Source: Aquabacterium sp.
GTDB taxonomy: Bacteria > Pseudomonadota > Gammaproteobacteria > Burkholderiales > Burkholderiaceae_C
Direction: 5' to 3'
Length of the DNA stretch: 64,000 nucleotides
NCBI GenBank assembly: GCA_023150345.1
Contig: JAKLLB010000003.1
Coordinates: 1-64,000, forward strand
Part shown: positions 26,682 to 63,777 of the stretch, in pieces
Position numbering within the stretch: the stretch's first letter is position 1
Layout of the letters: each line of letters starts with the position of its first letter
Made by a program: the position numbers and the translations under genes
The notes under the pieces: model-generated
What the model was told of the DNA's origin: nothing
The model's database searches: none
What the model saw: only the letters and a program-made list of their open reading frames with translations

Positions 26682-28088
26682 TCAGAGCCGCACGCCTGCG
26701 AGCCCGGACAACTGGGCCACGAAGGCCTCTTCGGCGGCAGCGCCGTCGAGACACCGCACGTCGAGCCTGACCTGCCCGTCCTCGATGCGGCCGATCACCG
26801 GGATCGGCAGCGCACGCAAGGCCTCGGCCAGGCGCTCGGGCAGTCGGCCGGCGCGCCGGGCCCCGCTGGGTGCGCCCAGCGCGATGCAGGCGCTGGGCAG
26901 GCGCTCCACCGGCAACGAGCCGCTGCCGATCTGGCTGCGGCAGTGCAGCACTTGGACCTGCACACGTCCGCCCAGGAACTGCTCGAACACCGGCGCCAGA
27001 CGCTCGGCCTGCGCCGTGAGCTCGACCTGGCTGCGCGTGAGCAGGCGCAAGGTGGGCAGGCGCGCGGCCAGCCGGTCAGGGTCGCGGTACAGGCGCAGCG
27101 TCGCTTCGAGCGCGGCTATCGTCATCTTGTCCAGGCGCAACGAGCGCTTGAGCGGATGCTTGCGGATGCGCTGCACCAGCGCCCGGTCGCCCACGATCAG
27201 ACCGGCCTGGGGGCCACCCAGCAACTTGTCGCCGCTGAAGGTGACGATGTGGGCGCCGGCGGCCAGCGACTGCTGCGGCGTCGGCTCGGCCGGCAGGCCC
27301 CAGCGGGTCAGGTCCACCAGGGTGCCGCTGCCCAGGTCCTCGACGAAGGGCAGGCCGCGCGAGCGGCACAGCGCCGCCAGCTCAGCCACGGGCACGCTGG
27401 CGGTGAAGCCCTGGATCGCGTAGTTGCTGGTGTGCACCTTCATCACCAGAGCGGTGCGCGACCCGATGGCGGCCTCGAAGTCGCGCAAGTGCGTGCGGTT
27501 GGTGGTGCCCACCTCGACCAGGCGCGCCCCTGCGCGGCGCATGATGTCGGGGATGCGAAACGCGCCGCCGATCTCGACGAGCTCACCGCGCGAGACCGGC
27601 ACTTCCTTGCGGTCGGCCAGCGCTGCCAGCACCAACAGCACCGCGGCGGCGTTGTTGTTCACCGCGGTGGCCGCCTCGGCTCCGGTGAGTTCGCGCAGCA
27701 GGCCTTCGAGATGATCGTCGCGATCGCCTCGCCCGCCGCACGTGAGGTCGAACTCGAGATTGGCGGCGCCGCGCATCACCGCAACGACCGCTTCGATCGC
27801 CTCGGGCGCCATGACCGCACGGCCCAGGTTGGTGTGCAGCACCGTGCCCGTGAGGTTGAACACCGGTCGCAACGACGCCTGCGCAGCAGCCTCCAGGCGG
27901 CTGCGGCAGGCGGCCTCGAATGCCGCCGCGTCGAATGCGGGCGGAGGCGCCTGCGCGCGCCAGTCGTCGAGCACCGCCCGCGCCACGGCCACCACTGGCG
28001 CGCGGCCGTGGTGCTCGATCAGCGCGGGCATCGCGCCGCTGGCGAGCAGCTTGTCCAGGGCGGGGGGGCGAAGTGCGGCGGCGGTCAC
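26682..28088 (-). CDS. selA: L-seryl-tRNA(Sec) selenium transferase
   Basis: A 468-residue PLP enzyme that turns Ser-tRNA(Sec) into Sec-tRNA(Sec) using selenophosphate. The start is a GTG at 28088 ([15 protein letters not shown]), 14 bases after the CCA end of the tRNA gene; a longer frame would run through the tRNA itself. Motifs include [16 protein letters not shown], the [16 protein letters not shown] segment, and the PLP lysine in [18 protein letters not shown]. Length matches E. coli SelA (463). It appears intact, so the recoded tRNA should be convertible to Sec-tRNA. Confidence 0.95.
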
Positions 28089-28102: not shown

Positions 28103-28199
28103 TGGCGGAAGAGGGTGGGAGTCGAACCCACCTGGGACCACAGGGCAGCCCCACCCGGTTTTGCAGACCGGACGCCCCACCGGGGGACGATCCTCCTCC
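28103..28199 (-). tRNA. selC: tRNA-Sec with anticodon GCA (reads Cys codons TGC/TGT)
   Basis: A 97-nt tRNA with encoded CCA. It has an 8-bp acceptor stem (GGAGGAGG with CCTCTTCC, one G-U), a 6-bp D stem (CGTCCC / GGGGCG), a 5-bp T stem (GTGGG / CCCAC) and a long variable arm (about 8 bp including wobbles, 28131-28152). The discriminator is G73. These are tRNA-Sec hallmarks; tRNA-Cys has a 7-bp acceptor, a short variable loop and U73. The anticodon arm is CCGGT-CTGCAAA-ACCGG, so the anticodon at 28164-28162 is GCA, not UCA. T33 and the A36-A37-A38 run are kept. SerRS reads the long arm rather than the anticodon, so charging with Ser should be unaffected. It sits 6 bases after the selB stop and 14 before selA. 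Confidence 0.95.
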
Positions 28200-28205
28200 A
28201 TTCGA

Positions 28206-30128
<1,923 letters not shown>

Positions 30129-30330: not shown

Positions 30331-30537
30331 ATGAGCAAACCGACCACTCCCACCCTGGGCCGCCGCGCGGTCTTTGCCGGCGCCGGCGCCGCAGGAGCAC
30401 TGGCTGCCGCCGCTGTCGTGCTGCCGCGCACACAGCAGGCTGCGCCTGCAGCCAAGCCCGAAGAAGCAGCGGCGGCGTCGGGCGGCTACCGGCTCACCGA
30501 GCATGTGAAGCAGTACTACGCCGTGGCACGCACCTGA
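30331..30537 (+). CDS. Formate dehydrogenase region Tat-target peptide
   Basis: A 68-residue protein with a short twin-arginine leader (TLGRRAVFAGAGAAGALAAAAVV) and a tail GGYRLTEHVKQYYAVART. This is the small FDH-region Tat-target family that regularly precedes fdhA in proteobacteria. AGGAGG lies about 10 bases before the ATG. It is probably exported with, or as an accessory of, FdhA. It starts the fdh operon. Confidence 0.88.
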   Translation: MSKPTTPTLGRRAVFAGAGAAGALAAAAVVLPRTQQAAPAAKPEEAAAASGGYRLTEHVKQYYAVART

Positions 30538-30600: not shown

Positions 30601-33558
30601 ATGTTGTTGACACGCAAGTCGGCGGGTGACGGGGCGACATCGTCGTCACGTACGCTCGTCGACAATTTGGCGCGGGGCCTGACCCGCGCCGTACCCACGA
30701 TGGACCGGCGCAAGTTCCTGCGTCGGTCCGGCCTGGGTCTGGGGGCCGGCATCGCCGCGTCCCAGCTCACGCTCGTGCGCAAGGCCCAGGCGGCCGACGC
30801 CCCGGCTGCGGGCGGAGCGGGCGCCAAGATCGAGGTCAAGCGCACGGTCTGTACGCATTGCTCGGTCGGCTGTGCGGTCGACGCGGTGGTGGAGAACGGC
30901 GTCTGGGTACGACAGGAACCCGTGTTCGACTCCCCCATCAGCCTGGGTGGCCATTGCGCCAAGGGCGGCGCCCTGCGCGAGAACGCGCACGGCGAGTTCC
31001 GCCTGAAGTACCCGATGAAGCTGGTGGATGGCAAGTACCAGCGCATCTCGTGGGACCAGGCGCTCTCGGAGATCAGCGCCAAGCTGCTGAAGCTGCGCGA
31101 GGAAAGCGGTCCCGACAGCCTGTTCGTCGTGGGCTCGTGCAAGAGCAACAACGAGCAGGGCTACCTGTTGCGCAAGTTCATGGCCCTGTGGGGGACGAAC
31201 AACTGCGACAACCAGGCACGAATATGCCACTCCACTACTGTCGCCGGTGTGGCGAATACGTGGGGCTACGGTGCGATGACGAATTCGTACAACGACATGC
31301 GCAACGCGAAGTCGGCGATCTACCTCGGCAGCAATGCCGCGGAGGCGCACCCGGTTTCGCTGGTGCACATGCTGCATGCGAAGGAGAGCGGCTGCAAGAT
31401 GATCGTCGTGGACCCCCGGTTCACGCGCACGGCGGCCAAGGCCGATCAGTACGTGCGTGTCCGCTCCGGCACGGACATCGCGTTCCTGTACGGCGTGATG
31501 TACCACGTCTTCAAGAACGGCTGGGAAGACAAGAAGTACATCGAGGACCGTGTCTACGGCATGGACAAGGTCCGCGAGCATGTTCTGGCCGACTGGACAC
31601 CGGAAAAGGTCGAGGAGGTCTGCGGGGTTCCCGAGGCCACGTGCTACCAGGTGGCCAAGACCCTGGCCGAGAACCGCCCCGGCACGCTGGTGTGGTGCAT
31701 GGGCCAGGCCCAGCACAGCATCGGCAACGCCATCGTGCGGGCGTCGTGCCTGCTGCAACTGGCGTTGGGCAATGTGGGTGTCAGCGGCGGTGGCGCGAAC
31801 ATCTTCCGCGGCCACGACAACGTGCAGGGCGTCACCGACATCGGTGCCAACCCCGACTCGCTGCCGGGCTACTACGGCATCGCCGAAGGCTCATTCAAGC
31901 ACTACGCCGCCGTGTGGGGAGTCGACTTCGACTGGATCAAGGGCCGCTTCGCGCCCGGCATGATGACCAAGCCGGGCACGACCGTTTCGCGCTGGTACGA
32001 CGCCGTGCTCGAGGCCAACGAGCACATCGACCAGCCGAGCAATCTGCGCGCCATGGTCTATTGGGGCCACGCCCCGAACTCGCAGTCGCGCGGCCTCGAC
32101 CTCAAGCGTGGCATGGACAAGCTCGACATGCTGGTGGTCGTCGATCCCTTCCCGTCGGCCACGGCAGCGATGGCGGCCATGCCCGGCAAACCCGAGGACA
32201 CCAACCCGAACCGTTCGGTGTATTTGCTGCCGGCCTGCACGCAGTTCGAGACCAGTGGCTCGGTGACGGCGTCCAACCGCTCGCTGCAATGGCGCGAGAA
32301 GGTGATGGAGCCGATGTATGAATCGCGCAGCGACCACATGATCATGTACCAGCTCGCGGAGAAGCTCGGCTTCGCCGACAAGCTGGTCAAGAACATCAAG
32401 CTGCACAAGGTCAAGGGCATGGACGAGCCCCAGCCGGAAGAGATCCTTCGCGAGATCAACCGCGGCGTGTGGACCATCGGCTACACCGGCCAGAGCCCTG
32501 AGCGGCTGAAGGCCCACATGCGCAACATGCACGTGTTCGACCCGACCACGCTGCGCGCCAAGGGCGGTATCGACAAGGAAAGCGGCTACAAGCTCGACGG
32601 CGACTACTTCGGCCTGCCGTGGCCCTGCTTCGGCACCGCGGAGATCAAGCACCCGGGCACCCACCTGCTCTACAACAACTCGCTGCATGTCATGGACGGC
32701 GGCGGGAACTTCCGCGCCAACTTCGGCGTCGAGCGCGAGGGCCAGTCGCTGCTCGCCGGCGACGGGTCGCACTCCAAGGGTGCCGAGATCACCACCGGCT
32801 ACCCCGAGTTCGACCACGTCCTGCTCAAGAAGTTGGGCTGGTGGGCCGACCTCACCGACGCCGAGAAAGCCAAGGCCGAGGGCAAGAACTGGAAGACCGA
32901 CCTCTCCGGCGGCATCCAGCGCGTGACCATGGCGCATGGCTGCCACCCGTTCGGCAATGCCAAGGCGCGCGCGGTGGTCTGGAACTTCCCCGATCCCATC
33001 CCCAAGCACCGCGAGCCGATCTATTCGCCGCGGCCCGAACTGGTCGCCAAGTACCCGACCCACGACGACAAGAAGGCGTTCTGGCGCCTGCCCACGCTGT
33101 TCAAGACGGTGCAGGAGAAGAACAAGGACATCGGCAAGCAGTTCCCGCTGATCCTGACGACCGGGCGCCTGGTCGAGTACGAAGGCGGGGGCGACGAGAC
33201 GCGGTCCAACCGGTACCTGGCCGAGTTGCAGCAGGAAATGTTCGTCGAGATCAACCCGGCGGCGGCCAACGACCGCGGCATCCGCAACGGCGATCACGTC
33301 TGGGTGAAGACCCCCAGCGGCGCGCGGCTGAAGGTGCGCGCGCTGGTGACCGAGCGGGTGGACAGGGCCACGGCTTTCATGCCCTATCACTTTGCCGGCC
33401 GCTGGCAGGGCGAAGACCTGCTGCGGTACTACCCCGCGGGCGCGGCCCCGATCGTCCGCGGCGAAGCCGCCAACACCGCAACGACCTACGGCTACGACGC
33501 GGTGACGATGATGCAGGAGACCAAGACCACGGTCTGCCAGGTCGAGCGGGCCGCGTAA
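30601..33558 (+). CDS. fdhA: Periplasmic formate dehydrogenase, catalytic subunit (probable Sec encoded by TGC)
   Basis: A 985-residue molybdopterin (bis-MGD) enzyme oxidising formate to CO2. It has a Tat signal (DRRKFLRRSGLGLGAGIAA), then the 4Fe-4S site CTHCSVGCAVDAVV ... GGHCAKGGA, and the active-site segment DNQARI-C-HSTTVAG with residue 209 at the position of Sec196 in E. coli FdnG. The molybdopterin-binding C-terminal domain has GRLVEYEGGGDETRSN and FVEINPAAANDRGI. Residue 209 is encoded by TGC at 31225-31227 and followed by a SECIS-like hairpin. The nearby selC reads TGC, so residue 209 may be Sec, at least in part. No TGA interrupts the frame. It is followed after 12 bases by fdhB. 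Confidence 0.93.
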   Translation: MLLTRKSAGDGATSSSRTLVDNLARGLTRAVPTMDRRKFLRRSGLGLGAGIAASQLTLVRKAQAADAPAAGGAGAKIEVKRTVCTHCSVGCAVDAVVENGVWVRQEPVFDSPISLGGHCAKGGALRENAHGEFRLKYPMKLVDGKYQRISWDQALSEISAKLLKLREESGPDSLFVVGSCKSNNEQGYLLRKFMALWGTNNCDNQARICHSTTVAGVANTWGYGAMTNSYNDMRNAKSAIYLGSNAAEAHPVSLVHMLHAKESGCKMIVVDPRFTRTAAKADQYVRVRSGTDIAFLYGVMYHVFKNGWEDKKYIEDRVYGMDKVREHVLADWTPEKVEEVCGVPEATCYQVAKTLAENRPGTLVWCMGQAQHSIGNAIVRASCLLQLALGNVGVSGGGANIFRGHDNVQGVTDIGANPDSLPGYYGIAEGSFKHYAAVWGVDFDWIKGRFAPGMMTKPGTTVSRWYDAVLEANEHIDQPSNLRAMVYWGHAPNSQSRGLDLKRGMDKLDMLVVVDPFPSATAAMAAMPGKPEDTNPNRSVYLLPACTQFETSGSVTASNRSLQWREKVMEPMYESRSDHMIMYQLAEKLGFADKLVKNIKLHKVKGMDEPQPEEILREINRGVWTIGYTGQSPERLKAHMRNMHVFDPTTLRAKGGIDKESGYKLDGDYFGLPWPCFGTAEIKHPGTHLLYNNSLHVMDGGGNFRANFGVEREGQSLLAGDGSHSKGAEITTGYPEFDHVLLKKLGWWADLTDAEKAKAEGKNWKTDLSGGIQRVTMAHGCHPFGNAKARAVVWNFPDPIPKHREPIYSPRPELVAKYPTHDDKKAFWRLPTLFKTVQEKNKDIGKQFPLILTTGRLVEYEGGGDETRSNRYLAELQQEMFVEINPAAANDRGIRNGDHVWVKTPSGARLKVRALVTERVDRATAFMPYHFAGRWQGEDLLRYYPAGAAPIVRGEAANTATTYGYDAVTMMQETKTTVCQVERAA
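31225..31227 (+). other. Putative selenocysteine codon TGC (residue 209 of FdhA)
   Basis: This codon aligns with the in-frame TGA of selenoprotein formate dehydrogenases (context R-[I/V]-U-H-x-x-[T/S]-V-A). The surrounding codons break the gene's C/G-ending habit: GCA CGA ATA before it, ACT ACT shortly after. That implies selection on the RNA rather than only on the protein. Its complement GCA is the anticodon of the selC tRNA at 28103-28199. Cys-tRNA would compete here, so a Cys/Sec mixture is possible. Confidence 0.75.
31228..31266 (+). promoter_or_regulatory. SECIS-like hairpin in fdhA mRNA
   Basis: Directly downstream of the TGC codon the RNA can fold into an upper stem UCGCC/GGCGA (31241-31245 with 31251-31255) capped by the loop GGUGU (31246-31250). 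A short internal loop (CUG opposite A) follows, then a lower stem UCCACUA/UA-C-GUGGG (31231-31237 with 31257-31264, one bulged C). The GGU loop begins 18 nt after the codon, exactly as in the E. coli fdhF SECIS (GGU of GGUCU, 18 nt after UGA). The internal loop keeps a U (31239) near the place of the bulged U that SelB needs. The pairing was done by eye. Confidence 0.75.
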
Positions 33559-33570
33559 GGAGGCGTCACG

Positions 33571-34197
33571 ATGGCACGAATGAAGTTCATCTGCGACGCC
33601 GAGCGTTGCATCGAGTGCAACGGCTGCGTCACCGCCTGCAAGGCCGAGCACGGGGTGCCCTGGGGCGTCAACCGCCGCCGCGTGGTCACCATCGGCGACG
33701 GCGAGCCGGGCGAGCGTTCGATCTCGGTGGCATGCATGCATTGCTCGGACGCTCCGTGCATGGCGGTATGCCCGGTCGACTGCTTCTATCGCACCGACGA
33801 AGGCGTGGTGCTGCACGACAAGGATGTGTGCATCGGCTGCGGCTATTGCTCGTATGCCTGTCCATTCGGGGCGCCTCAGTTCCCGAGCAACGGCCAGTTC
33901 GGCCTGCGCGGCAAGATGGACAAGTGCACCTTCTGCGCGGGCGGTCCCGAGGCCAATGGCTCAGCGGCCGAGTTCGAGAAGTACGGCCGCAACCGGCTCG
34001 CCGAAGGCAAGCTGCCCATCTGCGCCGAGATGTGCTCGACCAAGGCGCTGCTCGGTGGCGACGGCGACGTGGTGGCGGACATCTTCCGCAACCGCGTGCT
34101 GGTGCGCGGCAAGGGCAGCGAGGTCTGGGGCTGGGGCACCGCATACGGACGACCCGCTGGCAGTGGCACCCCCAATACCCCCGGGAGCAAGTCATGA
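33571..34197 (+). CDS. fdhB: Formate dehydrogenase, Fe-S (beta) subunit
   Basis: A 208-residue ferredoxin-like subunit passing electrons from FdhA to the membrane cytochrome. Four cysteine groups are visible: CIECNGCVTACKAEHG, CMHCSDAPCMAVCPVDC, CIGCGYCSYACPFGAP, and CTFCAGG ... CAEMC. This is the usual set for the FDH-N/FDH-O or FDH3 beta subunit without a membrane anchor. The small lipoprotein gene overlaps its stop. Confidence 0.93.
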   Translation: MARMKFICDAERCIECNGCVTACKAEHGVPWGVNRRRVVTIGDGEPGERSISVACMHCSDAPCMAVCPVDCFYRTDEGVVLHDKDVCIGCGYCSYACPFGAPQFPSNGQFGLRGKMDKCTFCAGGPEANGSAAEFEKYGRNRLAEGKLPICAEMCSTKALLGGDGDVVADIFRNRVLVRGKGSEVWGWGTAYGRPAGSGTPNTPGSKS

Positions 34198-34478: not shown

Positions 34479-34530
34479 CCCACGCTGTGCACGCCCCGCA
34501 TCCACACCCAGCCCACGCCGAGGTGACACG

Positions 34531-35676
34531 ATGAAGGCCACGATACGCCTGACCCTGGCCAGCGCCGTTTCGGCCCTGGCGGCAGCCACCGCGATGGCGC
34601 AGGCGCCCGCCGGGGCTTCGGCGCCGGCGGCGCCGGCGGCGCCGCCGGCCGGCTATGTTGCGCCGGCCGACCCCCGCGTGCAGGACACAGCCGCCGAGCG
34701 AATCCGCAGCCAGCCCGGCAACAATGCGCCCGTCTGGCGTGCGGTGCGCGAAACCGGCGCGCAGCCGGCCTACAGCTCGCTGCCTGGCGCAGAACAGGGC
34801 GTGCTCATCCAGTCCATGGTTCAGTACCCCGGCTCGCGCCTGACCACCGCCGGCGAGGCCTGGCGGCAGGTGCGCAACCAATGGATCATTCCCTATGGCG
34901 GCGCCTTGCTGCTGGTGGCAGTGCTGGCACTGGCGCTGTTCTACTGGCGGCGCGGCCCGCTTGGGGGTCACCTGCCCGACACCGGCCGCCGGGTCGAGCG
35001 GTTCACGCCCTTCGAGCGCTCGGCCCATCTGCTGAACGCCGCATCGTTCACGGTACTGGCGATATCCGGGCTGGTGATGGCCTTCGGCAAGTTCGTGCTC
35101 TTGCCGGTGATCGGCTCCACCCTGTTCGGCTGGCTGACCTACGCGCTGAAGACGGCGCACAACTTCGTCGGTCCGCTGTTCGCCGTGACATTGGTGATCA
35201 TGATCATCACCTTCGTGCGCGACAACCTGCCCCGAGCGGGCGACCTCGGCTGGCTGGTGCGTGCCGGCGGGATGATCGGCGGGCAGGAAGTTCCGTCGCA
35301 CCGGTTCAACGCCGGTGAGAAAGTGCTGTTCTGGGCGGGCGTGCTGCTGCTCGGCGGCATCGTTGTCGGCTCCGGGCTCGTGCTGGACAAGGTGCTGCCA
35401 GGCCTTGCCTACCTGCGTGGAGACATGCAGGTGGCCCACATGATCCACGCTGCGGCAGCGATGCTGATGATGGCGCTCTTCCTTGGCCACATCTACATGG
35501 GCACCATCGGCACCCGCGGCGCGTGGCAGGGCATGCGCACGGGCTGGGTCGACGAGGCCTGGGCCGCCGAGCACCATGCCCTGTGGCTGGCCGACATCCG
35601 CGCCGGCAAGATCCCTGCCCAGCGCTCCAGCGAGCCCGTGCCCGCCCAACTCAGCCCCGTGGAGGGAACCCGATGA
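34531..35676 (+). CDS. fdhI: Formate dehydrogenase, cytochrome b556 (gamma) subunit
   Basis: A 381-residue membrane subunit. A cleavable signal (MKATIRLTLASAVSALAAATAMAQA) and about 100 periplasmic residues precede four membrane helices. Histidines in the helices suit two b hemes: FERSAHLLNAASFTVLAISG, LKTAHNFVGPLFAVTLVIM and VAHMIHAAAAMLMMALFLGHIYMG. The soluble loop with EVPSHRFNAGEKVLFW is typical of FDH gamma subunits. It takes electrons from FdhB and reduces quinone. The start has GAGGTGA 8 bases upstream. Confidence 0.92.
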   Translation: MKATIRLTLASAVSALAAATAMAQAPAGASAPAAPAAPPAGYVAPADPRVQDTAAERIRSQPGNNAPVWRAVRETGAQPAYSSLPGAEQGVLIQSMVQYPGSRLTTAGEAWRQVRNQWIIPYGGALLLVAVLALALFYWRRGPLGGHLPDTGRRVERFTPFERSAHLLNAASFTVLAISGLVMAFGKFVLLPVIGSTLFGWLTYALKTAHNFVGPLFAVTLVIMIITFVRDNLPRAGDLGWLVRAGGMIGGQEVPSHRFNAGEKVLFWAGVLLLGGIVVGSGLVLDKVLPGLAYLRGDMQVAHMIHAAAAMLMMALFLGHIYMGTIGTRGAWQGMRTGWVDEAWAAEHHALWLADIRAGKIPAQRSSEPVPAQLSPVEGTR

Positions 35677-36050: not shown

Positions 36051-37028
36051 GTGACGCCCGAAGCCAGTACATCCCGCGCTCCTGATCATGCCTCCGAGCC
36101 CGCCACGCGGCCGACGGCGCCGTCGGCTTTCGAGCTGGGCACACACAGCGCCCAATGGCAGGCGGTGTCCGGTGCGCCCAGCCTGACCCGTGCCGCCGCG
36201 ACACTGCTGCGCGAGATCGACATCATCGACGAGTACGGCGAGCGCCGCGCACTGCACATTCCCGCCGAGCGACCGCTCACCGTTTTCGTCGACCGGCATG
36301 AGCTGGTGACGTTGATGACGCTGGGCGCCAACCCCGAGTTGCTGGCACTCGGATACCTGGTGAACCAGCGCCTGGTACAACGCGTCGAACAGATCGAGTC
36401 GATCACCGTCGACTGGGACGTCGCCGCCGCAGCCGTGCGCACCCACGGTGGCATTGCCGACTTGCATGAGCGCACAGCGCGGCGAGTGGTCACCACCGGT
36501 TGCGCGCAAGGCACGGTGTTCGGTGACCCGCTCGCCCAGGTGGCCAACGTACGTCTGCCCGGCCCCGGCGACGCACGGCTGAGGCAGTCGACCCTGAGCG
36601 CCATCCTCGAGGTGATGCGCCAGCGCAACAGCATCCATCGCAAGGCCGGATCGGTGCACGGCTGCGCGCTCTTCCGCGGCACGGAACTGCTGGTGGCCGT
36701 CGAGGATGTGGGCCGCCACAACGCCATCGATACCATCGCCGGCTGGATGGCCGTGCATGGCGTTCATGGTGCCGACAAGGTCTTCTACACCACCGGGCGG
36801 CTGACCAGCGAGATGGTCATGAAGGCCGCGCACATGGGCGTACCCATCGTGATATCGCGCAACGGTGTCACCGCCATGGGCCACGAACTGGCCTCGCGAC
36901 TGGGCATGGCGCTGTTCGGGCGTGCGGCGAACCGGCATTTCCTGTGCTACTGCGGCCAGGAGCGGTTCGACTCCGAACCCGAACCGGGGCGCGCCCCGGT
37001 TCGGGTCGTGGCCGGCGGCGCTTTGTAA
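36051..37028 (+). CDS. fdhD: FdhD sulfurtransferase for formate dehydrogenase
   Basis: A 325-residue protein from a GTG at 36051. FdhD binds bis-MGD and moves sulfur from IscS to the cofactor, a step essential for FDH activity. Family regions are PLTVFVDRHELVTLMTLGANPELLALGYL, the active-site segment RVVTTGCAQGTVFGD, and HRKAGSVHGCALF ... VEDVGRHNAIDTIAG. E. coli FdhD has two cysteines (121 and 124) in its loop. Here only the first is present (GCAQG), a variation worth noting, although Cys121 is the key residue. A functional protein is likely. Confidence 0.9.
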   Translation: MTPEASTSRAPDHASEPATRPTAPSAFELGTHSAQWQAVSGAPSLTRAAATLLREIDIIDEYGERRALHIPAERPLTVFVDRHELVTLMTLGANPELLALGYLVNQRLVQRVEQIESITVDWDVAAAAVRTHGGIADLHERTARRVVTTGCAQGTVFGDPLAQVANVRLPGPGDARLRQSTLSAILEVMRQRNSIHRKAGSVHGCALFRGTELLVAVEDVGRHNAIDTIAGWMAVHGVHGADKVFYTTGRLTSEMVMKAAHMGVPIVISRNGVTAMGHELASRLGMALFGRAANRHFLCYCGQERFDSEPEPGRAPVRVVAGGAL

Positions 37029-39808: not shown

Positions 39809-42583
39809 TCACTGCAGCGGCTGCACGCGCACGGCGCAGTACTTCACCTCGGCGATCTTCGCTGCGGGATCGAGCGCGGCATGGGTGAGCAGGTTCGCGG
39901 CCGCCTCGCGGAAGGCGAATGGCATGAACACCGTGCCGTCGGGCGTGCCATCGTCGCGCCGCAGCTGCAGCTCCACAGCGCCGCGCCGCGAGCTCACGCG
40001 GACCCGCGCCCCGGCATGCAGGCCCAGCCGCTGCAACTCGCGGCCGTTGACGGTGGCCACCGCCTCGGGCTCCAGTGCGTGCAGCACCTCGCTGCGGCGC
40101 GTCATGCTGCCGGTGTGCCAATGCTCGAGCACCCTGCCGGTGATCAGCACCAGCGGGTAGTCGCCGTCCGGCAACTCGGCAGCGGTGAGCAGACCGGCCG
40201 GCACCAGGTGGATTCGTCCGTCCTCGGTGGGCACGCGCTCGGTGAACACGATGGGTTGGCCGGGGTCGTCGTCGCCGACACACGGATAGGTGACGCTGCC
40301 CTCGCGCTCGAGCCGCTGCCAGGTCACGCCCGCGATGGTGGCATGCATGGCCTGGCGCATCTCCTCGTACACCGCCTGAACGCCCGAATGCGGCCCGTCG
40401 TAGCCCCAGCGCAGCCCCATGCGCTGAGCCAACTGCTGGATGATCCACAGGTCGGGCCGGGCATCGCCGGGCGGATCGATCGCCTGGCGCCCCATCTGGA
40501 CCATGCGATCGGTGTTGGTCACGGTACCCGTCTTTTCGGGCCAGGCGGTCGCCGGCAGCACCACATCGGCCAGCCAGGCCGTCTCGGTGAGGAACAGATC
40601 CTGCACCACCAGGTGCGACAGCGCGGCCAGGCCCTCGCGGGCATGGTTCAGATCCGGGTCGCTCATGGCCGGGTTCTCGCCCATGATGTACATGCCGCGC
40701 ACCTTGTCCGGATCGGACTCGGGGGCCAGCGCCTGGTGCAGGATCTCGACCACCGTGAGGCCGGGCCGCGCATCGAGCGGCTGTCCCCACAGCTGCTCGA
40801 ACCACTGCCGCGCCGGGGCATGGTCCACCCGCTGGTAGTTCGGCAACATCATCGGGATCAGCCCGGCATCGCTGGCGCCCTGCACGTTGTTCTGGCCCCG
40901 CAGCGGGTGCAGCCCGGTACCCGGTCTGCCGATCTGCCCGGTGATGGCCGCCAAGGCGATCAGGCAACGCGCGTTGTCGGTGCCGTGCACATGCTGGCTC
41001 ACGCCCATGCCCCACAGGATCATCGACGCACGGCTGGTGGCGTAGGCACGCGCCACCTCCCGCAGCGTGGACGCGTCGATGCCGCACACCGGCGCCATGC
41101 GCTCGGGGCTGTACGCGCGCACGTGTTCAGCCAGCGCCTCGTAGCCCCGTGTGCGCTGGCGCACGAACGCCTCGTCCACCAAACCCTCGTCGACGATGAC
41201 GTGCAGCAGCGCGTTGAGCATCGCCACGTCGGCATCGGCGCGAAACTGCAGCACCCGCCAGGCATGCCGCGCCAGGCCAGTGCGGCGCGGATCGGCCAGC
41301 ACGATGCGCGTGCCGGCAGCCGCTGCGTTCTTCATCCAGGTGGCGGCCACCGGGTGATTGGCCGTGGGGTTGGCCCCGATCACCAGCACCAGATCGGCAT
41401 GCCGCACGTCGCTGACCGGATTGCTCACCGCACCCGAACCCGCGCCCTCGAGCAAGGCGGTCACGCTCGAGGCATGGCACAGACGCGTGCAGTGATCGAC
41501 ATTGTTGCTGCCGAAGCCGGTGCGCACCAGCTTCTGGAACAAATAGGCTTCCTCGTTGCTGCCCTTGGCCGAGCCGAAGCCGGCCAGCGCGCGCGGGCCG
41601 TGGGCCTGCTTCAACCTCAGCAGGCCCTGCGCGGCCAGATCCAGTGCCTCGTCCCAGCTCGCCTGCCGGAACACCTCGGCCCAGCGCGCAGGATCGACCG
41701 GCATGGCACCCTTGGGCACCCCCGGCAGGCGCACCAGCGGCTGCAGCAGGCGCTCGGGATGATGGGCGTAGTCGAACCCGAAGCGGCCCTTGACGCACAG
41801 CCGGCCGCGATTGGCCGGCCCGTCGCGGCCCAGCACGCCCACGATCCGCTGATTGCGCAACTGGTAGGTGATCTGGCAGCCCACCCCGCAGTACGGGCAC
41901 ACCGAATCCACTTCCCGCTCGACGCGCCGATCGCCCTGCAAGGTGCGGGTGCTGAGTGCACCGGTCGGGCATGCCTGCACGCACTCGCCGCAGCCCACGC
42001 AGGAGCTGTCGCCCATCGGATCGGCCAGGTCGAACACGATCGACACCTCGCCGCCACGGTGGGACACGCCGATCACGTCGTTGGCCTGCACCTCGCGGCA
42101 GGCCCGCACGCAGCGCGTGCACTGGATGCAGGCCGCCAGGTTCACGGCCATGGCCGGATGGCTGTCGTCCGGCGTCGGTACCGGACGGTCGCCCTGGCGC
42201 AAGGCAGCCCGCACCTGCACGCCGCGCTTCGAAGCCCAGTCGCTCAGTTCGCCGTGCGGCCGTTGCGGATCGCCCTCGACCCAGGCACGACCCTGTGGCG
42301 GCCGGTCAGCCAGCAGCAGCTCGAGCACCATGGCCTGGCTGTGCAGTACCCGCTCACTTCGCGTATTCACCACCATCCCGGGCTGCGCCACCCGGCAGCA
42401 CGAGGCCGTCAGCGCCCGCTCACCCTGCACTTCCACCACGCAGGCGCGGCAGTTGCCGTCCGGGCGCAGGCCCTCGCAGTGGCACAGATGGGGAATCGTC
42501 GTGCCATGGCGTCGCGCCGCGTCGAACAACGTCTCCCCATCGTGCGCCACGCAGGGCTGGCCGTCGAGCGTGAAGGCGATCAT
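39809..42583 (-). CDS. fdsA: NAD-dependent formate dehydrogenase, alpha subunit
   Basis: A 924-residue cytosolic molybdenum enzyme, starting at 42583 where ATGA joins it to the upstream gene. The N-terminal 2Fe-2S domain (CHCEGLRPDGNCRACVVEVQG) and NuoG-like clusters (CIQCTRCVRACREVQ, CVGCGECVQACPTGA) precede the catalytic part with CPYCGVGCQITYQ. The Mo ligand is in NVDHCTRLCHASSV. The Mo-ligand Cys codon is TGC too, but the position 18 nt downstream reads GCC, not GGT, so ordinary Cys is expected. It oxidises formate with NAD together with the fused diaphorase. No fdsC or fdsD follows it. Confidence 0.92.
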   Translation of the reverse strand: MIAFTLDGQPCVAHDGETLFDAARRHGTTIPHLCHCEGLRPDGNCRACVVEVQGERALTASCCRVAQPGMVVNTRSERVLHSQAMVLELLLADRPPQGRAWVEGDPQRPHGELSDWASKRGVQVRAALRQGDRPVPTPDDSHPAMAVNLAACIQCTRCVRACREVQANDVIGVSHRGGEVSIVFDLADPMGDSSCVGCGECVQACPTGALSTRTLQGDRRVEREVDSVCPYCGVGCQITYQLRNQRIVGVLGRDGPANRGRLCVKGRFGFDYAHHPERLLQPLVRLPGVPKGAMPVDPARWAEVFRQASWDEALDLAAQGLLRLKQAHGPRALAGFGSAKGSNEEAYLFQKLVRTGFGSNNVDHCTRLCHASSVTALLEGAGSGAVSNPVSDVRHADLVLVIGANPTANHPVAATWMKNAAAAGTRIVLADPRRTGLARHAWRVLQFRADADVAMLNALLHVIVDEGLVDEAFVRQRTRGYEALAEHVRAYSPERMAPVCGIDASTLREVARAYATSRASMILWGMGVSQHVHGTDNARCLIALAAITGQIGRPGTGLHPLRGQNNVQGASDAGLIPMMLPNYQRVDHAPARQWFEQLWGQPLDARPGLTVVEILHQALAPESDPDKVRGMYIMGENPAMSDPDLNHAREGLAALSHLVVQDLFLTETAWLADVVLPATAWPEKTGTVTNTDRMVQMGRQAIDPPGDARPDLWIIQQLAQRMGLRWGYDGPHSGVQAVYEEMRQAMHATIAGVTWQRLEREGSVTYPCVGDDDPGQPIVFTERVPTEDGRIHLVPAGLLTAAELPDGDYPLVLITGRVLEHWHTGSMTRRSEVLHALEPEAVATVNGRELQRLGLHAGARVRVSSRRGAVELQLRRDDGTPDGTVFMPFAFREAAANLLTHAALDPAAKIAEVKYCAVRVQPLQ

Positions 42584-44487
42584 GCGTCCACCTCGTGTGC
42601 GAAATAGCGCTGCACGCAGCGCACCACATTGGGCGCGGCCTGCCCGAGGCCACAGATGGAGGCATCGACCATCACCCGCGACAGGTCTTCCAGCGTGGCA
42701 TGGTCCCAGTTGGGCGCCTGCATGAGGCGCGCGGCCTGCTCGGTGCCGGCGCGGCAGGGCGTGCACTGGCCACAGCTCTCGGCGGCGAAGAAGCGCATGG
42801 CGTCCAGCGCCACGTCGCGCGCACGGTCGGCCTGCGACAACACGACCACAGCCGCCGAACCGATGAAGGCACCATGCGGCTGCAAGGTATCGAAGTCCAG
42901 CGGCACATCGGCCAGCGACGCTGGCAGGATACCGCCCGAGGCGCCGCCCGGCAGGAAGGCATACAGCGTGTGCCCGTCGGCCATGCCGCCGCAGTACTCG
43001 TCGATCAATTCGCGCAGCGTGATGCCCGCCGCCGCGAGCTTCACACCAGGCGAACGCACCCGTCCGCTCACGCTGAACGAGCGCAGCCCCTGTCGCCCAT
43101 GGCGGCCGTGGCCCGCGAACCACGCCGCACCACGCTCGACGATGTCGCGCACCCAGTACAGCGTCTCGAAGTTGTGCTCCAGCGTGGGGCGGCCGAACAG
43201 TCCGCGCTGCGCGATGTAGGGCGGCCGCAGGCGGGGCTCGCCCCGGCGGCCCTCGATGCTTTCGATCATCGCCGACTCTTCGCCACAGACATAGGCACCC
43301 GCGCCGCGGCGCAACTCGATGCGCGGCAATGGGCACGGCGGGTCTTGCATCAGTCGCGCGAGCTCGTGTTGCAGCAGCGCGCGGCAGCCGTGGTACTCGT
43401 CGCGCAGGTAGATGTACACCGCCTCGGTGCCGACCACCTGGGCTGCCAGCAGCACGCCCTCCAGGAACCGGTGAGGATCGCGTTCGAGGTAGGTGCGGTC
43501 CTTGAACGTGCCGGGCTCGCCCTCGTCGATGTTGACGGCCATGAGCCGCGGCGCCGGCTGTTCGCGCACGATGCGCCACTTGCGAGCGGCTGCAAAACCC
43601 GCACCGCCCAGGCCGCGCAACCCGGAAGCCTCCAGCGCAGTCAACACGTCGTCTGCGGGCATTTCACCCTGCACCACGGCGGCGGCAAGCTGGTAGCCGC
43701 CACGCTCGCGGTAGGCCCGGTAGCCCACGTACCCCGGGGCGATCGTCGCATGCGGGTCGGGTGCGTCCACCGATGGCGGCCCGTCGGTGATGGCGCATGG
43801 GGCGACCGCCGCGGGGTCGAACCACGCTTGGTCGTCCAACGGCAATGGGTGCGTCACCGGACCCTGCTGCAACTCGGCAGCCAGTGCAGCGTCTGGTTGC
43901 GACGCCGCTGTCAATGCCACGACGGGGTACTGGCCACGAACGACCACCGGTGCCTGCTCGCAGCGCCCGACGCACGGCGCCCGCACCACGCGCTGGCCGG
44001 GGCCGGCCGCCTCCTGCAGCGCACGCGCCCAGGCGTCGGCGCCGGCGCAGGTGCAGGCCGGTCCGTCGCACACGCGCAGCGTCAACGCCGGCACCGGCTC
44101 GTCGTCGCCCAGGATGAGGAAGTGGTGATAGAAGCTCGCCACCTCGTAGACCTGCACGGGGGTCAGGCCCATCAGGGCCGCCAGAGCCACAAGATGGCGC
44201 GGGTGGAGCGCACCGCACGCGTCCTGGATCTGGTGCAGACGTTCGATCAACTGGTCGGCGGCCAGTCCGGCATCGGCGACGATCGCCCGCACCTCGGCCA
44301 ACGCGGCATCGTCGGCTTGGCGGCCGCGGGACTGGGCCGTGCGGCGCCGCGCGGGAAACCCCGAGGCCTCGGCATCAGGCCGAGCGTTGGTGGGCCGCCG
44401 CAAGCTGGCTTCGTCGGTTGCGGGCCGTGTGTCGGTGCTGGCGGCAGGCTTGGGCGGAGCGTCGTGGGGACTGTCTGGCGTGGTCAT
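42580..44487 (-). CDS. Formate dehydrogenase diaphorase, FdsG-FdsB fusion
   Basis: A 635-residue fusion of the gamma and beta subunits of NAD-type formate dehydrogenase. The N-terminal third is NuoE-like with a 2Fe-2S site (RVCDGPACTCAGADA then APCVGRCEQAP). The rest is NuoF-like, with the FMN/NADH loop SGLRGLGGAGFAAARKW, RGAGAYVCGEESAMIESIEG and the 4Fe-4S site ESCGQCTPCRAGTEQA. In Cupriavidus-type operons these are separate genes. It feeds electrons from FdsA to NAD. The start at 44487 is followed by a Pro/Ala-rich linker. Confidence 0.9.
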   Translation of the reverse strand: MTTPDSPHDAPPKPAASTDTRPATDEASLRRPTNARPDAEASGFPARRRTAQSRGRQADDAALAEVRAIVADAGLAADQLIERLHQIQDACGALHPRHLVALAALMGLTPVQVYEVASFYHHFLILGDDEPVPALTLRVCDGPACTCAGADAWARALQEAAGPGQRVVRAPCVGRCEQAPVVVRGQYPVVALTAASQPDAALAAELQQGPVTHPLPLDDQAWFDPAAVAPCAITDGPPSVDAPDPHATIAPGYVGYRAYRERGGYQLAAAVVQGEMPADDVLTALEASGLRGLGGAGFAAARKWRIVREQPAPRLMAVNIDEGEPGTFKDRTYLERDPHRFLEGVLLAAQVVGTEAVYIYLRDEYHGCRALLQHELARLMQDPPCPLPRIELRRGAGAYVCGEESAMIESIEGRRGEPRLRPPYIAQRGLFGRPTLEHNFETLYWVRDIVERGAAWFAGHGRHGRQGLRSFSVSGRVRSPGVKLAAAGITLRELIDEYCGGMADGHTLYAFLPGGASGGILPASLADVPLDFDTLQPHGAFIGSAAVVVLSQADRARDVALDAMRFFAAESCGQCTPCRAGTEQAARLMQAPNWDHATLEDLSRVMVDASICGLGQAAPNVVRCVQRYFAHEVDA

Positions 44488-63530: not shown

Positions 63531-63592
63531 CCGCCTGGACAACCGGCCAACCGGGTGCGCGCCCTGTGCCAGCCGCCTGGCGCTAAACTCCG

Positions 63593-63707
63593 GCCTTCGC
63601 GCAACTGGCGATAGGGTCGGCTGCGACCCGAGGTGGGTCACCACCGTGAAGCGCGATCGGCGGTCCCGAGGACGATGCCGAGTCACAGCCGTTCGCCTGG
63701 GCCGCCC
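63593..63707 (+). ncRNA. ZTP/ZMP (pfl) riboswitch upstream of glyA
   Basis: The leader carries the conserved elements of the pfl motif in order: GCGCAACTGGCG (63599-63610), a G-rich/C-rich helix, CACCACCGTGAAGCG (63639-63653), and a distal GTTCGCCTGGGC (63691-63702) that forms the pseudoknot with the first block. It ends about 70 bases before glyA. ZTP riboswitches sense the folate-stress alarmone and switch on folate and one-carbon genes such as glyA. A -10-like TAAACT lies at 63584-63589. Confidence 0.78.
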
Positions 63708-63777
63708 GCAGCGCACTCGCGCCGGCTTGGCCCGGGTTCGAGGCGGGACCACTCCCCAAGACGAGGACTGCCCTGTC

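Follow-up and report, generated by a model that had tools for sequence, protein, structure and literature searches.

The window analysed here, the whole 64,000-nucleotide stretch of an Aquabacterium draft genome, carries on its minus strand a tRNA gene (28103-28199) that lies between two genes of selenocysteine (Sec) metabolism. Directly downstream of the tRNA is selA, encoding L-seryl-tRNA(Sec) selenium transferase (26682-28088, minus strand; TIGR00474, 578.1 bits, cut-off 267.9; PF03841), and directly upstream is selB, encoding the Sec-specific elongation factor (28206-30128, minus strand; TIGR00475, 395.7 bits, cut-off 242.25; PF25461, PF09106 and PF09107). Both genes are intact, and the winged-helix domains are present in SelB. 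Divergent from selB, on the plus strand, is the gene for a formate dehydrogenase (FDH) alpha subunit (30601-33558; 985 codons), followed by genes for an FDH3 beta subunit (33571-34197; NF038355, 333.5 bits, cut-off 240), an FDH gamma subunit whose start is not fixed (34525-35676; TIGR01583, 151 bits, cut-off 115.85) and the FDH accessory sulfurtransferase FdhD (36051-37028; TIGR00129, 128.8 bits, just under the cut-off of 140.9). The alpha subunit matches PF00384, PF01568 and PF04879, and scores 465 bits with TIGR01591, below the cut-off of 666; it is of the FDH3 type as judged from its beta subunit, and reading by eye gave it a TAT-like signal. A small ORF immediately before the alpha gene (30331-30537, plus strand) also begins with a TAT-like signal by eye. 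The window further holds a ZMP/ZTP riboswitch (63591-63709, plus strand; 48.1 bits) and a second FDH, with a NuoG-like N-terminal part (39809-43579, minus strand; TIGR01591, 697 bits, above the cut-off).

A complete tRNA-Sec with the anticodon GCA

A first-pass annotation, made from the sequence alone, had claimed that 28103-28199 is a tRNA-Sec with a GCA anticodon, and this claim was confirmed. Using cmscan, the tRNA-Sec model RF01852 was found to match the gene over its entire length (model positions 1-91) with 71.2 bits, the gathering score being 47, and the alignment includes a D stem of six pairs and a long variable arm. Inspection of the sequence by eye added an acceptor stem of 8 bp, a T stem of 5 bp, the discriminator G73 and an encoded CCA. 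At 28164-28162 the anticodon reads GCA instead of the UCA of canonical tRNA-Sec, which does not exclude a Sec role, because published natural tRNA-Sec variants also lack UCA. The gene is a real and full tRNA-Sec with the anticodon GCA, and ARAGORN labels it tRNA-Cys(gca), just as had been forecast for tRNA annotators.

That label would fit an unusual cysteine tRNA, resembling selC*, that is charged by CysRS and brings Cys to UGC via SelB or EF-Tu. CysRS uses the anticodon GCA as a strong identity element, and tRNA-Cys of tRNA-Sec-like form is known, according to passages of PMC7609411 and PMC11415595. The gene itself, however, has none of the features of tRNA-Cys (U73, a 7/5 branch and no long variable arm): its discriminator is G73, and its 8/5 branch, 6-bp D stem and long variable arm have the Sec form. 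G73 and a long variable arm favour SerRS and disfavour CysRS. Moreover, the gene lies between intact selB and selA, the genome has an ordinary tRNA-Cys(gca) with U73 on a separate contig, and the SECIS-like element behind one codon that is described below would be needless for a Cys role. We consider this reading very unlikely.

The source draft genome (4.58 Mb in 251 contigs, 94% complete) has 28103-28199 as its sole tRNA-Sec above the RF01852 cut-off. The other ten matches listed for it reach at most 46.1 bits, and the five of them that were read individually (L002-L006) are tRNA-Ser, tRNA-Leu and tRNA-Lys. A single scan with a tRNA-Sec pattern for the anticodon RCA was made of the GTDB species collection, which according to the tool's description comprises 84,980 genomes and from which the source genome's own records were possibly left out. 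The scan reported 20 contigs, labelled Rubrivivax, Piscinibacter, Leptothrix, Azohydromonas or just Betaproteobacteria, Burkholderiales, Proteobacteria or Pseudomonadota, and all 20 carry a tRNA-Sec with GCA, in sequences that are not copies of one another. A base-calling error at 28162-28164, a concern raised by the first-pass annotation, is excluded, since the identical triplet recurs in these 20 further genomes. Within the family, 30 other best-scoring tRNA-Sec loci were read and TCA was found in all 30, while 20 further regions gave GCA in four, TCA in 15 (two of them loci already among the 30) and a tRNA-Ser-like gene in one (L054). The GCA pattern is present in 6 of 399 family genomes, the source genome and five others; as these five coincide with places found in the GTDB scan, the distinct genomes with tRNA-Sec(GCA) are the source genome and the 20 (hereafter the 21 GCA genomes).

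A second, intact UCA-type selC elsewhere in the genome had been named in advance as an observation that would speak against the tRNA-Sec(GCA) reading. No such gene was found in the source draft at its 94% completeness, but among the matches read, two of the 20 other genomes, G308 and G318, do have one. In both, the second tRNA-Sec, with TCA, is accompanied by its own selB (L171 on contig C10 of G308; L165 and L204 in G318, contig C194), and in G318 a UGA-type FDH shares the contig with them. Both genomes are metagenome bins by their record titles; they may be mixed bins, or there may be two Sec codes within one cell. The 20 other genomes also contain some extra RF01852 matches of 47-50 bits and 86-88 nt.

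It might be argued that the system is decaying, the anticodon having mutated after Sec use ended and the sel genes being relics. The selD gene of the source draft (L119, contig C144, 8190-9036) is interrupted: its frame changes and about 31 residues are lacking. In G305, a Piscinibacter aquaticus record, the FDH and selB sequences are each spread across several frames (L137, L141, L167). The broken selD may be an assembly fault or a genuine loss, in which case the source genome alone would make no Sec; the search was extended to four more GCA genomes (G094, G242, G161, G037), and every one of them gave a single unbroken selD match. The split genes of G305 look like the outcome of indel errors or of decay. 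Against relic status, one anticodon has been retained in 21 genomes whose SelB identity to that of the window goes down to about 57%, SelA and SelB are intact here, and the element described below is poor in synonymous change. We regard decay as extremely unlikely.

A conserved element behind codon 209 of the formate dehydrogenase

In the canonical pathway SerRS charges tRNA-Sec with serine, SelA converts the Ser-tRNA-Sec, and SelB delivers the product near a SECIS. These steps are also recounted in part of PMC8124441. The first-pass annotation had proposed that the tRNA is charged by SerRS, converted by the adjacent SelA and used to deliver Sec to TGC or TGT, and had named no target. The adjacent SelA proved to be an intact enzyme by its TIGR00474 score, and a candidate target can now be named. 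It is the TGC at 31225-31227 (plus strand), codon 209 of the FDH alpha gene (NQARI-C-H), which occupies the catalytic Sec/Cys position and aligns with the TGA of the family's UGA-type FDHs. The anticodon GCA pairs with UGC at this codon, where a redox enzyme has its Sec position. TGC is present at codon 209 in 21/21 GCA genomes, and also in all 25 orthologues taken from genomes that lack the GCA tRNA pattern.

A hairpin resembling a SECIS lies at 31230-31265 (plus strand), with an outer stem (31230-31235 paired with 31260-31265), an apical stem (31241-31245 with 31251-31255) and a GGUGU loop at 31246-31250. The loop begins 18 nt past codon 209, as does the AGUCU loop of the UGA-type FDH in locus L047. 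Codons 214-221, which hold the hairpin, are spelled GTC GCC GGT GTG GCG AAT ACG TGG in 21/21 GCA genomes, whereas the 25 orthologues without the GCA pattern have 21 spellings, the GCA-clade spelling never among them. Codons 207-211 are likewise identical in 21/21 GCA genomes, and codons 212 and 213 vary. Uninterrupted stretches of invariant degenerate codons are longest in the GCA set at 214-221 (seven) and 207-211 (five), compared with a maximum of three in the non-GCA set. Four of the invariant codons are minor choices in the 64,000-nucleotide window: ATA (5/204 Ile), CGA (63/566 Arg), GGT (73/566 Gly) and AAT (24/138 Asn).

The same conservation is evident in the synonymous differences, which were computed for 19 of the 21 GCA genes, omitting the partial sequences L138 and L139 (L141 is a second fragment from G305; L146, from G363, was placed in neither the GCA nor the non-GCA set). 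Over codons 207-219 the synonymous difference is 0.07, the smallest value among 973 such codon windows, for which the gene-wide mean is 0.307 (sd 0.09). Values almost as small are reached in the GCA set by windows that begin at codons 301-303. In the 25 non-GCA orthologues the difference over codons 207-219 is 0.321, at rank 736. The apical stem, the GGUGU loop and all six outer pairs occur jointly in 21/21 GCA genes and in 0/25 of the others, where the apical stem is pairable in 13, the loop letters GGTGT are present in seven, and both are found in three. G197 and G097, two genomes without the GCA pattern, differ from the element by no more than two mismatches, one of which is in the loop (GGCGU), and the G197 sequence folded into the same shape. 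The GCA genome G316 has an additional FDH copy on a different contig (L140), and this copy lacks the element.

Folding energy was rejected as proof of the hairpin: its stability is ordinary (an equally low energy is reached by 205 of 5000 synonymous versions; z -1.42 relative to shuffles), and parts of it can form in many non-GCA genes. Nor does covariation lend support, as the element shows almost no variation within the clade. Because of the ordinary stability, and because the protein sequence itself favours the apical stem, the case rests on invariance, position and co-occurrence and not on energy. These same observations suggest that the coding sequence is predisposed to the hairpin, so that a SECIS could arise here easily.

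The tRNA-Sec(GCA) could also be real while the FDH stretch is conserved for another cause, such as codon context, mRNA folding or a regulatory or overlapping element, UGC then being read only as Cys and the Sec target, if any, lying elsewhere. The ordinary stability would agree with such a cause, as would the apical stem that can form anyway in 13/25 non-GCA genes and the extension of the invariance to codons 207-208, before the UGC. Yet among 399 family genomes the exact element is confined to the six with the GCA tRNA and one incomplete draft, it is absent from the second FDH copy of G316, and its loop follows the codon at the same 18 nt as that of the UGA-type FDH. No other target stood out in the source genome either, where a narrow pattern (TGY, 9-24 nt and GCCGGTGTGGC) gave 17 matches, one of them this FDH, compared with 12 in a reversed control. 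We judge conservation for another cause to be unlikely, and the hairpin at 31230-31265 is probably a SECIS recognised by SelB, a candidate element as judged from comparison of sequences.

The second FDH of the window (39809-43579, minus strand) also has TGC at the Sec position, without the conserved element. It is not favoured as a target: the codons after its TGC are spelled differently in the relatives' counterparts (seven compared, L091, L092, L094, L095, L099, L102 and L106), also between the GCA genomes among these.

Co-occurrence and history of the tRNA and the element

An FDH orthologue was found in 190 of the 399 family genomes (E up to 1e-250), and the exact element in seven. All six family genomes with the GCA tRNA are within these seven; the seventh, G363, is 61% complete and has no tRNA-Sec above the cut-off. 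The FDH gene and the tRNA are divergent on the same contig in 18 of the 21 GCA genomes, 2.4-5.4 kb apart, and are on different contigs in three. We also searched 26 genomes (the 21 GCA genomes, G363 and four TCA relatives) for a UGA-type FDH. At E up to 1e-120 it was detected only in one of the TCA relatives (G141) and in G318, and was thus not found in 21 of the 22 drafts that have the GCA tRNA or the element.

A SelB tree was built from 44 rows (19 GCA and 25 TCA; L178 was excluded as too short, and G305 has no row). In it a branch with an SH-aLRT of 100 separates the GCA rows from the others, and the rows nearest to them come from the TCA genomes G250 and G275. In an FDH tree of 46 rows, in which the gene of G363 was retained, the 19 GCA rows together with G363 are on one side of a branch (99). 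As the element is present in seven of 190 FDH-bearing genomes, the simplest history is one change from TCA to GCA and one gain of the SECIS in a lineage with a Cys-FDH, the roots not being fixed by these trees. Searches for a mobile origin gave no matches in viral contigs, and 87 plasmid records that match at 60-90% identity; the two of these that were read (L238 and L239) carry TCA.

The two nearest TCA genomes, together with G336, hold a candidate for a new selenoprotein of a different kind, a periplasmic binding protein of the SBP_bac_5 family (NikA/DppA-like) whose reading frame contains a single TGA (L042:11908-13464, minus strand; L044:6185-7777, plus strand; and L237; genomes G250, G275 and G336). 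It was found in these three of 379 family genomes (E up to 1e-60), each time directly upstream of selB, and all three have a TCA tRNA-Sec of 93 nt. The context of the TGA is EGNW-U-VIDEPGPWGTGPF in two genomes, with EGQW in the third, and the 41 nt from the TGA onward are identical in all three; in the G275 match a TAG is also listed inside. SaoX and SaoB, other selenoproteins that are binding proteins, are named in passages of a 2026 review, and the NCBIfam matches listed for the candidate include neither family.

A proposed second meaning of UGC and comparison with known systems

The tRNA-Sec(GCA) conserved across the clade, the intact selA and selB, the matching codon, the conserved element, the co-occurrence and the linkage point to one explanation, which we consider highly probable: a Burkholderiales clade has moved the Sec of an FDH from UGA to UGC. 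SerRS would charge tRNA-Sec(GCA) with serine and SelA would convert the seryl-tRNA to the Sec form, in line with the route proposed by the first-pass annotation, which gains support from G73, the long variable arm, the intact SelA and SelB and the adjoining target. SelB would then carry the Sec-tRNA to UGC codon 209 of the FDH3-type mRNA, marked by the SECIS hairpin 18 nt downstream, where ordinary Cys-tRNA would compete with it. Given this competition, Sec and Cys enzymes are probably made side by side, and a shortage of selenium would leave the cell with a functional Cys form. As to how this arose, we lean towards an FDH3 lineage that always had TGC and a half-folded hairpin; by gain of the SECIS, the change from UCA to GCA and loss of the UGA-type FDH, a Cys enzyme would have become a selenoenzyme with its catalytic codon unchanged.

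If this is true, the clade as a whole is a natural and stable example of a sense codon that carries two meanings within a single cell, the choice between them being made by a hairpin. The second meaning of UGC would be confined to one mRNA and would probably act as a selenium-dependent Sec/Cys switch that is invisible to annotation; such selenoproteins escape ordinary annotation, since the tRNA is called Cys and the gene resembles that of a plain Cys enzyme. The paired gains of anticodon and SECIS, with close relatives that have neither, would make the evolution of a code change directly testable, and the competition between SelB and EF-Tu at a sense codon would become directly testable as well.

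The principle is already published for Aeromonas salmonicida, and the clade, the enzyme and the conserved element are new here; no description of any of the three was found in the literature searched, which did not cover the founding 2016 report. In that report, Mukai et al. (Angew Chem) are said to have described an A. salmonicida tRNA-Sec(GCA) together with the use of a Cys codon for Sec. Passages of later papers state that this tRNA inserts Sec at chosen Cys codons, given as UGC in PMC11415595 and as UGU in PMC10778597. In E. coli with overproduced sel genes, a UGC before a SECIS gives selenium labelling, less than UGG does, and the SECIS requirement is described for UGG in the relevant part of that work (PMC3834832).

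The system proposed here shares with Aeromonas a tRNA-Sec(GCA) and, like it, would direct Sec to chosen Cys codons beside a SECIS; it differs in belonging to another bacterial group, with 21 genomes, and in its FDH3-type target adjoining selB. In addition, the Aeromonas SelA is described, in a passage of PMC10778597, as recognising a 12-bp branch, whereas the tRNA here has an 8/5 (13-bp) branch. The canonical UGA/UCA relatives G078, G183 and G218 likewise have selB, tRNA-Sec and FDH within 20 kb and a loop 18 nt after the codon. Their FDHs, however, belong to a different subfamily (31-33% identical), and the pair here is UGC and GCA, with Cys-tRNA as the competitor instead of release factor 2. 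The tRNA-Sec(CUA) of Geodermatophilaceae, as presented in part of PMC5330540, is also a natural anticodon change matched by the codon of the target gene, but the codon there is a stop codon, while here it is a sense codon with a resident cognate tRNA. Finally, the selC* tRNA-Cys resembles the present tRNA in mixing a tRNA-Sec shape with a Cys anticodon; as outlined in PMC7609411, it combines U73 with a modified 8/4 branch, in contrast to the G73 and 8/5 branch of the tRNA reported here.
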